Origin: Clostridiales bacterium | Lineage (GTDB): Bacteria > Bacillota > Clostridia > Monoglobales > WRBX01 | Assembly: GCA_031263785.1 (NCBI GenBank) | Contig: JAISFC010000072.1 | Location: forward strand, 1-37,690 | Direction: 5' to 3' | Length of the DNA: 37,690 nucleotides | In this document: one piece after another, positions 166 through 6,904 of the stretch | How the letters are laid out: the number at the start of each line of letters is the position of its first letter | Position numbering within the stretch: the first letter of the stretch is position 1 | Program-made: the position numbers and the translations under genes | The notes under the pieces: model-generated | Told to the model about the DNA's origin: nothing | What the model saw: the letters and a program-made list of their open reading frames with translations, nothing else | Database searches by the model: none

Positions 166-369
166 CTTCAAAACACCCCCATCCGCTTCATACAGTTTAT
201 CATTTGCAGATGGATTTTAAACAACTCAAGAGATGGATATCCAATATTCTAGATTGACTTCTCAAAAGAATTTATGATACTATAATTTACGGGGGCGTAT
301 TTTTTAATCTTAAAAACGCGGCGATTTAAACGCGCAAAAAAATTCAATAATTTCTCCAAATAAAAAAAC

Positions 370-398
370 TCAAAAGCACATTCACATAACGCTTTTGA
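370..398 (-). terminator. Rho-independent terminator downstream of the zeta-like gene
   Basis: Perfect 8-bp inverted repeat TCAAAAGC...GCTTTTGA, followed on the minus strand by a T-run (AGTTTTTTTATTT). Confidence 0.7.
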
Positions 399-444
399 AG
401 CCATATTTTTTATTAATTAACTTTGGGAAATCCGCAAAGGTCTC

Positions 445-1266
445 TTATTTTGCCTCTATTTTTGGCTCTTTAACAATATGCGAAGGACTTTTCCCTTCAA
501 TGGACTGCTGTAAAGGTCCGCGGGGATCTACATTAGGCGTTTTTGCTAAATTATAGACCTCCTTACCGTCCCTTCCTACAATCCTAATTTGTTCAAATTC
601 CCTCGATTTATATAATACGCTACTACTTGCCACAAGGTCGATAACTACTGAATTAAAATATTCACGTCCCACCGCTCGAGGGAATATTTCCGATTCCTTT
701 CCTGCTGCTATTTCTTTTTCTCTAGCTCTAGTCACATCCTCAAATCTTTCTTGTATCCCGTTCCAAGCAGTGTACTTGTCTGTCGCAATGATTTCAACAT
801 TAGCGGCGGCATATCCCTTTTTCTTAAAAATCCTCGCTGCTCTAATAGCATATCGGGGATCGCGAAGAGTTCCATCTATGATCACATTATACCCTGCCTC
901 TCTAAGTCTTTTTATCAAACCTCTTGACACCCGGCGGGCAAATTTGTTTGTTTGAATTGAATAATAACTCGGTTCTTCAGCTTTCACCTCAGGCATTTCC
1001 CCGATTTCATATATATCTTTTGCTTTTGGATGGTCTTCTCTATATTCATCAATATCCACTGAAATAATATTTCCCTTATATTCCCCTTTTATATTTTTAA
1101 CGGCTCTGCTTTTTCCGGCACCCGGTAATCCTCCCATAAAAATAACAACACGAGGCTGTTCTGCAGGAGCTATCGTCTTAGTCAAAAACCGAAAGTTATC
1201 TTCAATTACGGTTTTAACATCCTCGGCAGTAAACGCATCTGTATAATCATTGAATTTTTCGTCCAT
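445..1266 (-). CDS. Zeta-toxin-like P-loop kinase
   Basis: Walker A MGGLPGAGKS, VDIDEYREDHP and GYNVIIDGTLRDP match the zeta toxin/UDP-GlcNAc kinase pattern. ATG at 1266 (MDEKFNDY) is better spaced from the SD (AGGGAG) than the GTG at 1275. Confidence 0.8.
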   Translation of the reverse strand: MDEKFNDYTDAFTAEDVKTVIEDNFRFLTKTIAPAEQPRVVIFMGGLPGAGKSRAVKNIKGEYKGNIISVDIDEYREDHPKAKDIYEIGEMPEVKAEEPSYYSIQTNKFARRVSRGLIKRLREAGYNVIIDGTLRDPRYAIRAARIFKKKGYAAANVEIIATDKYTAWNGIQERFEDVTRAREKEIAAGKESEIFPRAVGREYFNSVVIDLVASSSVLYKSREFEQIRIVGRDGKEVYNLAKTPNVDPRGPLQQSIEGKSPSHIVKEPKIEAK

Positions 1267-1308
1267 GTTTTTCACTCTCCCTTGATGGGGAAATTAGTAT
1301 GGGAAGTT

Positions 1309-1743
1309 TTATCTTGTCGGTCTCTTCCCACGGGTTTGTGCTTCTTTTTCATAAATATCCTGCGCCTCTTTTATATATACAATTAGTTGGTCATGCATTG
1401 CATCCACTTCTTCAATTGTTTTGCAGTCAAAAGCCAGTTCTCCCATAGGATGAATTTTTTCCGCCCATATTTGCAGTATAGGGTGGCTTTCATCGCCCGG
1501 TCTGCCCAATTTCCTAACATAGCGGAAACACGCATGACTAGAAGATGATATGTGTTCACGAAGAACATCCTTTGCAATATCCAGCTTGTAATCGTAATCA
1601 AGCTCAACAACCGGTTCCCTTTCCGTAACATCGTCCATTTCTTTACTCCTTTCAAGCTTTCTCTTAGAGGAAAACCGCGCCAAAAGTCCTCTTATCGCTT
1701 CCTTTGCGCCAACTCCAACAATTCCTACATCTAATGTACCCAT
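1309..1743 (-). CDS. Small unknown protein, repeat copy 1 (alternative start at the internal MDDV ATG)
   Basis: MGTLDVGIVGVGAKEAIRGLLARFSSKRKLERSKEMDDV...CFRYVRKLGRPGDESHPILQIWAEKIHPMGELAFDCKTIEEVDAMH...; paralogous to the two adjacent ORFs. The longer ORF start at 1881 reads into the preceding copy and is unlikely. Confidence 0.75.
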   Translation of the reverse strand: MGTLDVGIVGVGAKEAIRGLLARFSSKRKLERSKEMDDVTEREPVVELDYDYKLDIAKDVLREHISSSSHACFRYVRKLGRPGDESHPILQIWAEKIHPMGELAFDCKTIEEVDAMHDQLIVYIKEAQDIYEKEAQTRGKRPTR

Positions 1744-1770
1744 ATTATCACATCCTTTACAAAAAGTCAA
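1742..1770 (-). promoter_or_regulatory. Sigma-A-like promoter for copy 1 (-10 overlaps the upstream ATG)
   Basis: Minus strand TTGACT-17 nt-TAATAT. Confidence 0.55.
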
Positions 1771-1810
1771 GCAAAAATATATATTTGATGGGGAAATTAA
1801 CGTGAATTTT

Positions 1811-2212
1811 TTATCTTGTCGGTCCCCCACGGGTTTGCAATTCTTTTTTATAAATATCCTGTGCCTCTTTCCCATATGCAATTAGTTGAGTACGCATTGC
1901 ATCCACTTGTTCAATTGTTTTGCAGTCAAAAGCCAGTTCTCCCATGGGATGAATTTTTTCCGCCCATATTTTCAGTATCGGATGACTTCTATCACCCGGT
2001 CTGCCCAACGCTCTAACATAGATGAAACAGTCAGAACCGGACGATGCTATACTATCACGAAGAAAATCCTTTTCAAAATCCAGATCGACATCAATAACAT
2101 TTTCCATTTTTTTGCTCCTTTCAAGCTTTTTCGTAGAGGAAATCCATGCTAAGAGTCCCTTTACGGTTTCTCTGACGCCGTTTCCTAACATTCCTACATC
2201 TAATGTACCCAT
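1811..2212 (-). CDS. Small unknown protein, repeat copy 2
   Basis: MGTLDVGMLGNGVRETVKGLLAWISSTKKLERSKKMENV...CFIYVRALGRPGDRSHPILKIWAEKIHPMGELAFDCKTIEQVDAM...; paralogue of copies 1 and 3. Confidence 0.75.
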   Translation of the reverse strand: MGTLDVGMLGNGVRETVKGLLAWISSTKKLERSKKMENVIDVDLDFEKDFLRDSIASSGSDCFIYVRALGRPGDRSHPILKIWAEKIHPMGELAFDCKTIEQVDAMRTQLIAYGKEAQDIYKKELQTRGGPTR

Positions 2213-2239
2213 ATTATCACATCCTCTACAAAAAGTCAA
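2211..2239 (-). promoter_or_regulatory. Sigma-A-like promoter for copy 2 (-10 overlaps the upstream ATG)
   Basis: Minus strand TTGACT-17 nt-TAATAT, same geometry as copy 1. Confidence 0.55.
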
Positions 2240-2279
2240 GAAAAAATATATATTTGATGGGGAAATTAGCGTGGAAAGT

Positions 2280-2606
2280 TTATCTTGTCGGTTCCCCACG
2301 GGTTTGCAACTCTTTTTTATAAATGTCCTGCGCCTCTTTTGCATATATATTTAGTTTATGATGCATTGCATCAACTTCTTCAATTGTTTTGCAGTCAAAA
2401 GCCAGTTCTCTCATAGGATGAATTTTTTCTTTCCATATTTTCAATATCGGATGGCTTCTATCACTCGGTCTGCCCAATTTCCTAACATAGCTGAAACACT
2501 CAGAACCGGAAGCTGATATGTGTTCACGAAGAACATCCGTTGCAATATCCAGCCTATGAGCGTAATCAAGCTCAACAACCGGTTCCCTTTCCGTAACATC
2601 GTCCAT
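2280..2606 (-). CDS. Small unknown protein, repeat copy 3 (short form; lacks the MGTLDVG leader)
   Basis: MDDVTEREPVVELDYAHRLDIATDVLREHISASGSECFSYVRKLGRPSDRSHPILKIWKEKIHPMRELAFDCKTIEEVDAMHHKL...; SD GGGAG before ATG 2606. TTG at 2651 is an alternative start. Confidence 0.7.
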   Translation of the reverse strand: MDDVTEREPVVELDYAHRLDIATDVLREHISASGSECFSYVRKLGRPSDRSHPILKIWKEKIHPMRELAFDCKTIEEVDAMHHKLNIYAKEAQDIYKKELQTRGEPTR

Positions 2607-2683
2607 TTCTTTGCTCCCTTCAAGCTTTTTTGTAGAGAAAATCCGCGCCAAAAAAATACATATTTTACCTTATCTATAATTTA

Positions 2684-2712
2684 ATTTTAACACATTTTCG
2701 CCTAAAAGTCAA
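2684..2712 (-). promoter_or_regulatory. Sigma-A-like promoter for the triplicated-gene/zeta locus
   Basis: Minus strand TTGACT-17 nt-TAAAAT. Confidence 0.65.
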
Positions 2713-2821
2713 GCGTTTTATGAGAATTCCGCCCTTTATTGCAGTAATCTTTTCCTTTGCGCCTATAATTCATGTATTTTTAATTTTTTCGTCACAAATT
2801 TAAAATATTTTCAAAAAAAGC

Positions 2822-2850
2822 TTGACAAAATTACCCAATGCTTATATAAT
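2822..2850 (+). promoter_or_regulatory. Sigma-A-like promoter of the SLH gene
   Basis: TTGACA-17 nt-TATAAT, then AGGAGG before ATG 2887. Confidence 0.8.
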
Positions 2851-2886
2851 CATGTTAGAGTACAAATAAATTATAGGAGGTAGTTT

Positions 2887-5448
2887 ATGTTTAAACGGTT
2901 TTTAGCAACAATTACTGTATTAGTGATGGCAGTTGCTTTATTGCCGTCGATGACTTTTGCAGAGGAAGAGCTTAAATACACAGATATCGGCGGACATTGG
3001 GCAGAGGCTCAAATTACGGAATGGAGTGATTTGGGCATTTTACAAGGCAACGACAGCGAGTTTCTTCCGGATGACGAAATCAGTCGTGCGGAAATGGCGG
3101 CAATGATAGTGCGCATTATGAAGTATCAGACCCCCGCTGCCAACACATTCACGGATTTGGGACAAGATTGGTACACGCAGGATGTTCTGCGCGCGAACAA
3201 CGCGGGGGTTATTATCGGGTACGGTAACGGCGAGGTTCATCCGTTGTCAAGCCTAACTCGCGAGGAAGCGGCGACGATTTTAGGGCGCTCGATGGACGTA
3301 GTGCAAAGCTCGTCTGCGACCGAATTTATTGACAGGGCTAAAATCAGCCAGTTTGCGCTGGGGTACATCAATGCGCTTGCGTCTAAGGGGATTTTGACGG
3401 GTGCGAATAATATGATTAATCCGACGGAAAACGTTACACGCGCGGAGGTAGTCGCTATGCTCGACAGGAGCATTTCGGGCTTGTACGGCACGGGCGGGGA
3501 TGTTACGCTTACGGCGGACTCGAGCATTATACTCACCGCGGACGGCGTAACCCTCAAGGATACCACTATTGCAGGCGACGTAATTATAACGGAAGGCGTC
3601 GGCATCGGGGATATTATTTTGGATAATGTTAAAATTAGCGGTCGTTTGATTGTGCATGGCGGAGCTAATGTGATTGTTAAGGGCAATTCGGATGTAGCGG
3701 CAACCTTGGTGCGTAAGGCGGGCGGCATAGTTAATCTGGCTGTGCAGGGCGCGGCGGAGGTTGGCGAGGTACGCGTTGCCGACAATTCAGGCAGTGTTGC
3801 GATAAGCGGGTCGGTTGATTCTATCGTGGTTGGCGCTGAAGTTAATGTTACGTACAGCGACGGAACGGCAGGGACTGTGACTATCGAAGGCATTGGTTCG
3901 ACTTTCACAAACAAAGGAATTGTGAGCGTTTTAGAGGCGAATAATAGCGGCGAGATAGTAAACAACGGGACGGTTAGCAAGTTGACGGCGAGCGCGAACG
4001 ATGTGGTTTATGACGGCAACGCTCCCGGCGTATTGGAAGTAGACAGCAGTGTGACTTACCCCCCCGTGGACAGCAACGGCGTGTTGGTTCAGGCTAGAAG
4101 GACTGGCGGCGGTGGTTCAGGCGGTGGCGGCGGCGGACTTCCCCAAGCGACTCCGGCAGGTACGCCCGTAGTTCAGGGACCTGTGACGTCGCAGGAGATG
4201 GTAGAAGGGACGAATCCGGTAGCGGCAAAATGGGAAATTACACTTACTACCCTTTTGGAAGAAGGGGACACAGTCGGAATAAGAAGCAATTATTATAACG
4301 ACACATTGGAGTGGGTTGCTCCTACGCCTACTCCGATTATAAGCGATCAGGTTGCGGCTTTAGTAACAGAATTGGATACTCTGGATAATGGCAATCATTA
4401 TACTTTCGCTGTAAAAAGCGGAGGGTCGGGTGATACTATTGAAGTTACGCAAAATGTAGTAGAACAGGATAGTATCGCGCTTATCGGCACTGCAGCAAGC
4501 AAGTTTTCGTTGAGCAATACTGTGCCGTTTGACCTCGGGACTAAGTCCGTTTGGAAGGCATCGTTGGGCGCAAAATTGCAAAACGGCGATAAAATAGATG
4601 TGTCGGCAACAATCGGGGTCTTAGGTTCGCAAAGTGTGTCATTTACAGCTGATTCAACTTTTGCCGCCCTTAGCAGTCAGCAACAGGCGGAAGCGATTAA
4701 GACGGCGCTTGAAGCGGATAGTACTATAGCCTCGCTTTACGACTTCGAGCTTTCCGGCACTCAGCTTACGGCGACAGCTAAAAACGCGGGTACGGACAGT
4801 ATTACTATAACGTTCACACCTGCAGCGACCAGCGTAGCCACGATTGAGGATGCCACGGCGTTTGAAGATGCGATTGCTATAGGTTATAAGAATATAACGG
4901 TTGACGGCAATCTGGATTTATCGGAAGAAGGAACCTTTGAGCTTGATGACGTGGAAGTGACGCTTGCTAATGGCAGCGAAACGGTACTGCCGATGGAACT
5001 TGATATCACAAACGGCGGCGAGTTGAAGGTAGAAGAAGGCGCTACGTTAAAATATGTAGACAGCTTGGGCAATACAGAGGAATTGATTGGCGATAACTCT
5101 TTGGTTCTTGATGAAGACGCATCAATTACAATTACGGGTACGTCTACCGGAGCTTTCAACACTTGGACGCGTCAACTAGTAATAACGGGAGATGTTGTTG
5201 TTAAATCCCCCACAGAATTAGTGTTTGCCGTAGGTGAAACTGTGACTATAAGTGCCGATTCTACTGTTACCATTGAAGATGGTGCGGCGTATTATTTCCT
5301 CGGATCGACTTTGAATGTTGTCGGCACCGCCGATACATCTATCTTAGTGATAGAAAGCGGAGCAATTGTTGACAGTAAAGCGAGTTCCGCACCACTTAGC
5401 ACCGGATTATATAAATGGAACACTAGTCAGTGGGAATTACAAACATGA
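2887..5448 (+). CDS. Secreted SLH-domain (S-layer-type) surface protein
   Basis: Signal peptide MFKRFLATITVLVMAVALLPSMTFA; N-terminal SLH repeats (YTDIGGHWAEAQITEWSDLGILQGND..., FTDLGQDWYTQDVLRANNAGVIIGYGNGEVHPLSSLTREEAATIL..., FIDRAKISQFALGYINALASKGILTG...); Gly-rich linker; repetitive beta-rich C-terminal half. Confidence 0.9.
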   Translation: MFKRFLATITVLVMAVALLPSMTFAEEELKYTDIGGHWAEAQITEWSDLGILQGNDSEFLPDDEISRAEMAAMIVRIMKYQTPAANTFTDLGQDWYTQDVLRANNAGVIIGYGNGEVHPLSSLTREEAATILGRSMDVVQSSSATEFIDRAKISQFALGYINALASKGILTGANNMINPTENVTRAEVVAMLDRSISGLYGTGGDVTLTADSSIILTADGVTLKDTTIAGDVIITEGVGIGDIILDNVKISGRLIVHGGANVIVKGNSDVAATLVRKAGGIVNLAVQGAAEVGEVRVADNSGSVAISGSVDSIVVGAEVNVTYSDGTAGTVTIEGIGSTFTNKGIVSVLEANNSGEIVNNGTVSKLTASANDVVYDGNAPGVLEVDSSVTYPPVDSNGVLVQARRTGGGGSGGGGGGLPQATPAGTPVVQGPVTSQEMVEGTNPVAAKWEITLTTLLEEGDTVGIRSNYYNDTLEWVAPTPTPIISDQVAALVTELDTLDNGNHYTFAVKSGGSGDTIEVTQNVVEQDSIALIGTAASKFSLSNTVPFDLGTKSVWKASLGAKLQNGDKIDVSATIGVLGSQSVSFTADSTFAALSSQQQAEAIKTALEADSTIASLYDFELSGTQLTATAKNAGTDSITITFTPAATSVATIEDATAFEDAIAIGYKNITVDGNLDLSEEGTFELDDVEVTLANGSETVLPMELDITNGGELKVEEGATLKYVDSLGNTEELIGDNSLVLDEDASITITGTSTGAFNTWTRQLVITGDVVVKSPTELVFAVGETVTISADSTVTIEDGAAYYFLGSTLNVVGTADTSILVIESGAIVDSKASSAPLSTGLYKWNTSQWELQT

Positions 5449-5479
5449 AAAAGAAAATAAACTAGATATGGAAAATATG

Positions 5480-5514
5480 AAAACACCCTTCAGCAATCGC
5501 TCTAGGGTGTTTTT
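5480..5514 (+). terminator. Rho-independent terminator after the SLH gene
   Basis: AAAACACCCT...AGGGTGTTTTT perfect 10-bp stem plus T-run. Confidence 0.8.
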
Positions 5515-5550
5515 AGTCTTAATTACGGCGTCGCAAAAGGGGTTGTAAAA

Positions 5551-5815
5551 GGGAACAGGTAATAGGGAACAGGGAACAGGGAACAGGGAACAGGTATTGT
5601 TGAATTGCTTACGCAATTCTTTTTATTTAATTTAATTCAAAGATTTTCGTAGGTCCAGGTAATAGGTAGTGTTGAATTGCCCACGCAATTCTTTTGTTTT
5701 ATTATTCAAAGATTTTCGCAAGAAAATCTACTACACCTGTTCCCTGTCACCTGTTCCCTGTTCCCTCTTTAAAGGTTTTCGCAAGAAAATCACTACACCT
5801 GTTCCCTGTTCCCTA
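5551..5815. repeat. Composite intergenic repeat island: GGGAACA heptamers, inverted TGTTCCC heptamers and short palindromes
   Basis: Left array GGGAACAGGTAATAGGGAACAGGGAACAGGGAACAGGGAACAGG; right arrays CACCTGTTCCCTGTCACCTGTTCCCTGTTCCCT and CACCTGTTCCCTGTTCCCT; hairpins GAATTGC-TTAC/CCAC-GCAATTC (twice) and GATTTTC-GCAA-GAAAATC (two copies, one G/G variant). Confidence 0.85.
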
Positions 5816-5824
5816 TATATGTTT

Positions 5825-5860
5825 AAAAACACCCATCAGCAACTGCTTTAGGGTGTTTTT
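5825..5860 (-). terminator. Terminator hairpin after gap (bidirectional type)
   Basis: AAAAACACCC...GGGTGTTTTT perfect stem, near copy of the 5480-5514 hairpin. Confidence 0.75.
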
Positions 5861-5887
5861 GCTATTAATAAAATACAGTGTTATTTC

Positions 5888-6904
<1,017 letters not shown>

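Follow-up and report, generated by a model that had tools for sequence, protein, structure and literature searches.

In a stretch of clostridial DNA of 37,690 nucleotides (the window, meaning the whole stretch that was analysed), three related open reading frames (ORFs) for a small protein lie directly upstream of a zeta-like kinase gene. The question raised by this locus is whether it represents a new kind of toxin-antitoxin (TA) module, as a preliminary description made from the sequence letters had proposed, and what the additional copies of the small gene are. We consider it very likely that the genes form a type II TA operon of the epsilon-zeta/PezAT kind, and that its cassette has been multiplied and is recombining across ten loci of one genome; the basis of this reading is computational and comprises homology, predicted folds, catalytic residues, gene order, the ten loci and mosaicism. 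The operon lies on the minus strand (window 445-2713) and reads, in order of transcription, promoter-like site, copy c, copy b, copy a, kinase and terminator hairpin, with the following features:

2684-2713, minus strand: promoter-like site P1 (TTGACT-17-TAAAAT), where the homology shared among cassettes starts (pattern scan)
2280-2651, minus strand: predicted antitoxin copy c, lacking its first ~20 codons (ORF and homology)
2211-2239, minus strand: putative second promoter-like site (TTGACT-17-TAATAT), conserved, which overlaps the copy b start (pattern scan)
1811-2212, minus strand: predicted antitoxin copy b, intact (133 aa), most similar to the C56-locus antitoxin (nucleotide identity, tree)
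1742-1770, minus strand: putative second promoter-like site, conserved, which overlaps the copy a start (pattern scan)
1309-1743, minus strand: predicted antitoxin copy a, 144 aa, intact, adjoining the kinase on its 5' side (AlphaFold core, Foldseek)
445-1266, minus strand: zeta/PezT-type kinase, the predicted toxin, 273 aa (Pfam, PDB sequence and fold matches)
~355-415, minus strand: intrinsic terminator, a hairpin with T-run 3' of the kinase, common to other cassettes (folding, shared sequence)

The kinase starts at the ATG at 1266, with GGGAG ahead of it, and the stop codon of copy a ends at 1309; the ORF coordinates thus confirm the antitoxin-first order and the 42-nt gap reported previously, and the terminator noted after the kinase was recovered as well (fold -12.5 kcal/mol, z -2.37), detected by folding and not picked up by a simple terminator scan. 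Copies a and b most probably begin with the ATGs at 1743 and 2212, both preceded by Shine-Dalgarno (SD)-like AAAGGA/GAGGA, and the longer ORFs of these intact copies (190 and 177 aa) merely extend up into the preceding copy. Copy c has no ATG at the usual place; its best start is an internal SD and ATG at 2606, giving a 108-aa core. Rfam gave no match within the window. Past the terminator lies an HTH_3 regulator gene cut by the contig end (1-165, minus strand), and at the other cassette loci the kinase was not seen to be followed directly by such a gene. Divergent from the operon is a gene for an 853-aa protein with three S-layer homology domains (2887-5448, plus strand), in the region of which a perfect TTGACA-17-TATAAT site occurs (2822-2850), and the intergenic sequence at 5437-5906 contains short repeated units whose ORF translations show repeated CSLFPVPCSLLPVP-like runs.

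The kinase is a clear relative of zeta and PezT with its catalytic residues retained. The zeta motifs quoted in the preliminary description are present, and the searches agree: Pfam Zeta_toxin (PF06414) matched with E 3e-34 (118.6 bits, cut-off 22.3), the sequence matches in the PDB were 1gvn_B (E 5e-23) and 2p5t_B (E 1e-18), and the first eight structures found by Foldseek with a kinase model of moderate confidence (mean pLDDT 64) were all zeta or PezT (E 3e-17 to 6.4e-14). The catalytic residues in the window kinase are K52, D73, D131, T133, R135, R174 and R197. Contig ends truncate two of the source genome's ten kinases at codon 75, and in all eight full copies the equivalents of zeta Lys46, Asp67, Thr118, Arg120, Arg158 and Arg171 are invariant; Glu116 is conservatively replaced by Asp, and the equivalent of Thr121, a residue with a mild effect on toxicity, is variable. 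In zeta, Asp67 (Asp66 of PezT) is the catalytic base and is needed for toxicity together with Thr118, and Glu100 and Thr128 contact the UDP part of UNAG (PMC3062530). Neither of these two contacts is kept in the alignment (Glu100 to Arg115, Thr128 to Ala/Met143), and for this reason the kinase, although likely a UDP-sugar kinase, may have an exact substrate differing from UNAG.

The small protein had been judged by eye to be unlike epsilon and was assigned to an unknown family, a view that structure and profile comparison overturn, as they match it to epsilon/PezA with the same three-helix fold predicted. Pfam Epsilon_antitox (PF08998) scored below threshold over ~70 residues (13.8 bits against a cut-off of 25), and the best score among all copies in the genome, 16.2 bits, was still below it; because the curated cut-off is not reached, the protein is not filed in this family. 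In an AlphaFold model based on 12 paralogues, residues 44-139 form a core of three helices (pLDDT mostly > 90), and the top five of 350,542 PDB chains searched with Foldseek were PezA (three chains) and epsilon (two chains), with probabilities of 0.95-0.99 for the first four and weak E-values (0.18-1.3); this result agrees with the adjoining zeta gene, which played no part in the search. Alignment by hhalign to six epsilon/PezA sequences gave a probability of 78% and a score of 34, which none of 400 column shuffles reached (maximum 20.5), the reversed profile giving 13.5 and 0.4%. The N-terminal extension of ~40 aa forms a short low-confidence helix in the model and has no HTH match. A PDB profile search with the small protein also listed MAT1 (E 0.02), a helical chance match that was rejected because no fold match supports it. 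No non-TA family matches the core. On predicted fold and profile, the small protein is therefore best described as a far-diverged epsilon/PezA-type antitoxin with an N-terminal extension, because of which the guess of a TA module with the small protein as antitoxin was right as the likely reading and that of a new TA class was not. Relatives of the antitoxin outside the source genome were found neither in collections of genome, viral and plasmid contigs (pattern search and tblastn) nor among 50 further genomes from the order (profile search); pattern scans for the kinase were likewise empty, and a kinase profile search found only distant zetas, which adjoin canonical epsilon or PezA.

The source genome (1.45 Mb in 92 contigs, 92% complete, 0 contamination) contains 13 antitoxin copies (the weakest at E 2e-29, well beyond chance) and ten kinases at ten dispersed loci; the amplification of the small gene described earlier holds, with three copies at the window locus. 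An antitoxin gene lies directly upstream of the kinase at 10/10 loci, 29-42 nt apart, the extra antitoxins being two at the window locus and a truncated one behind the C61 kinase, and all 13 copies adjoin a kinase. Each cassette of ~1.5 kb comprises promoter, antitoxin, kinase and terminator; between loci, homology is mostly confined to the span bounded by the promoter-like site and the terminator, and the flanks are mostly unrelated. A genome-wide scan gave nine sites with the promoter pattern and none with its reversed control; eight of the nine precede cassettes, the ninth being at the right end of contig C15; the C13 cassette carries a variant site and the C56 cassette has none where its contig begins. 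The right end of C15 (L062) and the end of C56 (L034) overlap by just 10 nt and look, suggestively at most, like the opposite edges of a single insertion, flanked by a repeated AATATGTATATTTTCACTT, that separates the promoter of one cassette from its antitoxin. No zeta was found at E <= 1e-10 in the 50 other genomes of the order, and since these also have no antitoxin relative, acquisition and expansion of the cassette look lineage-specific within this sample. It is very improbable that, in place of a poison-antidote pair, the genes encode a sugar-nucleotide kinase for house-keeping or signalling and a small regulatory partner: the loss of two substrate-binding residues of zeta and the cost of ten poison copies in so small a genome would suit such an enzyme, but its patchy distribution at that threshold, the antitoxin-first pairs at every locus, the retained catalytic residues and the dispersal of ~1.5-kb cassettes between mostly unrelated flanks argue against it.

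The surroundings of the cassettes are diverse. On contig C70 (L035) the cassette (~4740-6200) immediately follows a prophage-like group (530-4575) of head genes and a holin gene, with matches to phrog_371, phrog_511 and phrog_199. Contig C38 (L033) has an EPSP-synthase-family gene of the MurA/AroA type (1948-3282, minus strand) ~0.85 kb upstream of the kinase start; the zeta product inhibits MurA, and the proximity may or may not be coincidence. A dnaA gene adjoins the cassette on contig C72 (L039; 1067-2533, minus strand), which places at least this one copy on the chromosome, possibly close to the origin of replication. PADLOC gave no match and thus no known defence system, and a visual, non-systematic check recognised no transposase or terminal repeats at the cassettes. 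Could the cassettes be selfish addiction elements, spread by phages or mobile DNA and of no benefit to the host? We regard this as possible but lean against it, because, while their dispersal between unrelated flanks, their restriction to one lineage and the position of one cassette in ten behind prophage genes for head proteins and a holin would be expected of such elements, other cassettes have ordinary chromosomal settings (dnaA; the EPSP-synthase/MurA-type gene) and the visual check points the same way.

The cassette copies are mosaics that have exchanged segments by recombination. A PHI-type permutation test gave 0/1000 for the kinase and for the antitoxin, and half-gene trees conflict, tests and trees alike resting on few, related sequences. 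Copy b has 90.5% nucleotide identity to the C56 antitoxin and 79.9% to copy a, is identical to C56 over alignment codons 38-60 and groups with it in the tree (support 0.99; first half 0.999), but the tree of its second half places it elsewhere; copy a clusters with C70a/C72, not with copy b. The three ORFs described as paralogous are thus homologous, as stated, but two are intact and one is 5'-truncated, and they are not sister tandem duplicates. A repeat of ~20 nt (CTTTTGGCGCGGATTTCCTC) occurs in the antitoxin N-terminus and behind several kinases; it lies at the start of or inside copy c, the additional C61 copy and the 3' ends of several kinase genes, which makes it a plausible site of unequal recombination. 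Copies b and c might then be recombination debris without a function of their own, copy a alone being of importance; we give this somewhat less than an even chance. Copy c has lost its 5' end, and truncation of the extra C61 copy at the same repeat suggests recurrent unequal recombination; against debris, none of the three frames is interrupted, the conserved core positions are common to all of them, each retains a good SD-ATG context, and copy b is full length.

The internal start of copy c raises another possibility, that two antitoxin forms are made: P1 would give the long form, and the internal SD and ATG, perhaps by way of the second promoter-like site, would give a short one, the 108-aa core. 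An SD-like purine run (GAAAGGAG, with small changes at most) followed by ATG, or by GTG in two copies, is found internally in 13/13 copies, both truncated ones included, and the second promoter-like site is conserved ahead of the intact copies. Synonymous variation at the internal site is, however, not reduced (rank 71 among 146 windows), and its conservation may therefore be at the protein level only; we think the two-form arrangement unlikely.

Kinase and antitoxin are under purifying selection overall (mean dN/dS 0.47 and 0.51), although values near 0.5 are also compatible with relaxed constraint. In the kinase the lowest dN/dS (0.05) is at codons 121-140, the region of the GT.R motif, and values near 1 occur at codons 21-40, 201-220 and 261-273. 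Distances of the antitoxin core correlate with those of the kinase (Mantel r 0.78, p 0.006; r 0.36, p 0.03 after removal of the most divergent locus), a correlation that co-inheritance fits as well as co-evolution, and those of the extension show no correlation. The segments of zeta that contact epsilon are known (PMC4963854), and their equivalents in the kinases are variable; as the non-contact C-terminus varies too, variability does not single out the interface. The earlier proposal of evolving specificity thus gains weak support from the correlated distances.

Compared with epsilon-zeta of pSM19035 (PDB 1GVN/3Q8X), the window operon shares the antitoxin-first pair, the zeta kinase fold with its catalytic residues and the predicted three-helix antitoxin, but differs in the N-terminal extension of an antitoxin that scores below the Pfam cut-off, in having no recognised omega-type regulator beside the cassette, in the lost Glu100/Thr128 contacts and in its ten mosaic copies. 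PezAT of Streptococcus pneumoniae (PDB 2P5T) provides, in the epsilon-like domain of PezA, the best fold match of the antitoxin, and PezT is matched by the kinase, whereas the window antitoxin is without the N-terminal HTH DNA-binding domain and is duplicated. With the gonococcal ng-epsilon1/ng-zeta1 the operon would share a zeta-type sugar-nucleotide kinase toxin, but ng-epsilon1 wraps its toxin as an extended chain and the window antitoxin is predicted to be a globular three-helix protein (PMC5923241).

In the characterised streptococcal systems the kinase has its ATP site closed off by a three-helix antitoxin and, once set free, phosphorylates UNAG (PMC3062530, PMC5923241). We infer kinase toxicity, complex formation, substrate and cross-protection in the window operon. 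Both proteins would come from one transcript, the antitoxin first, and the antitoxin, by analogy with the epsilon2-zeta2 complex, would sit on the ATP site of the kinase and hold the enzyme off; upon loss of the labile antitoxin the released kinase would use ATP to phosphorylate a UDP-sugar wall precursor (UDP-GlcNAc or a close relative), and wall synthesis would stop. The system is probably functional. The 1.5-kb cassette has multiplied to ten loci in this lineage and exchanged segments by recombination, leaving two extra antitoxins at the window locus, one closely like that of C56, and copy b may neutralise the C56-locus kinase or raise the antitoxin dose. Tentatively, and with rather more doubt than belief, we suggest that the ten loci may act as one recombining TA network, in which segments are reshuffled, new specificities arise and spare antitoxins, such as copy b from a C56-like locus, protect against the toxins of their source loci.

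The proposed mechanism is a known one; the ten mosaic loci and spare antitoxins are the unusual and new part, and a limited literature search found no paper describing such a multi-copy zeta family. Epsilon antitoxins as diverged as these escape Pfam and NCBIfam, and their kinase neighbours may therefore be taken for orphan toxins. This one genome, in which ten cassettes recombine and spare antitoxins occur, is a natural test bed for the divergence of TA specificity, and it bears on cross-neutralisation between related pairs and on the origin of antitoxin-only duplicates.
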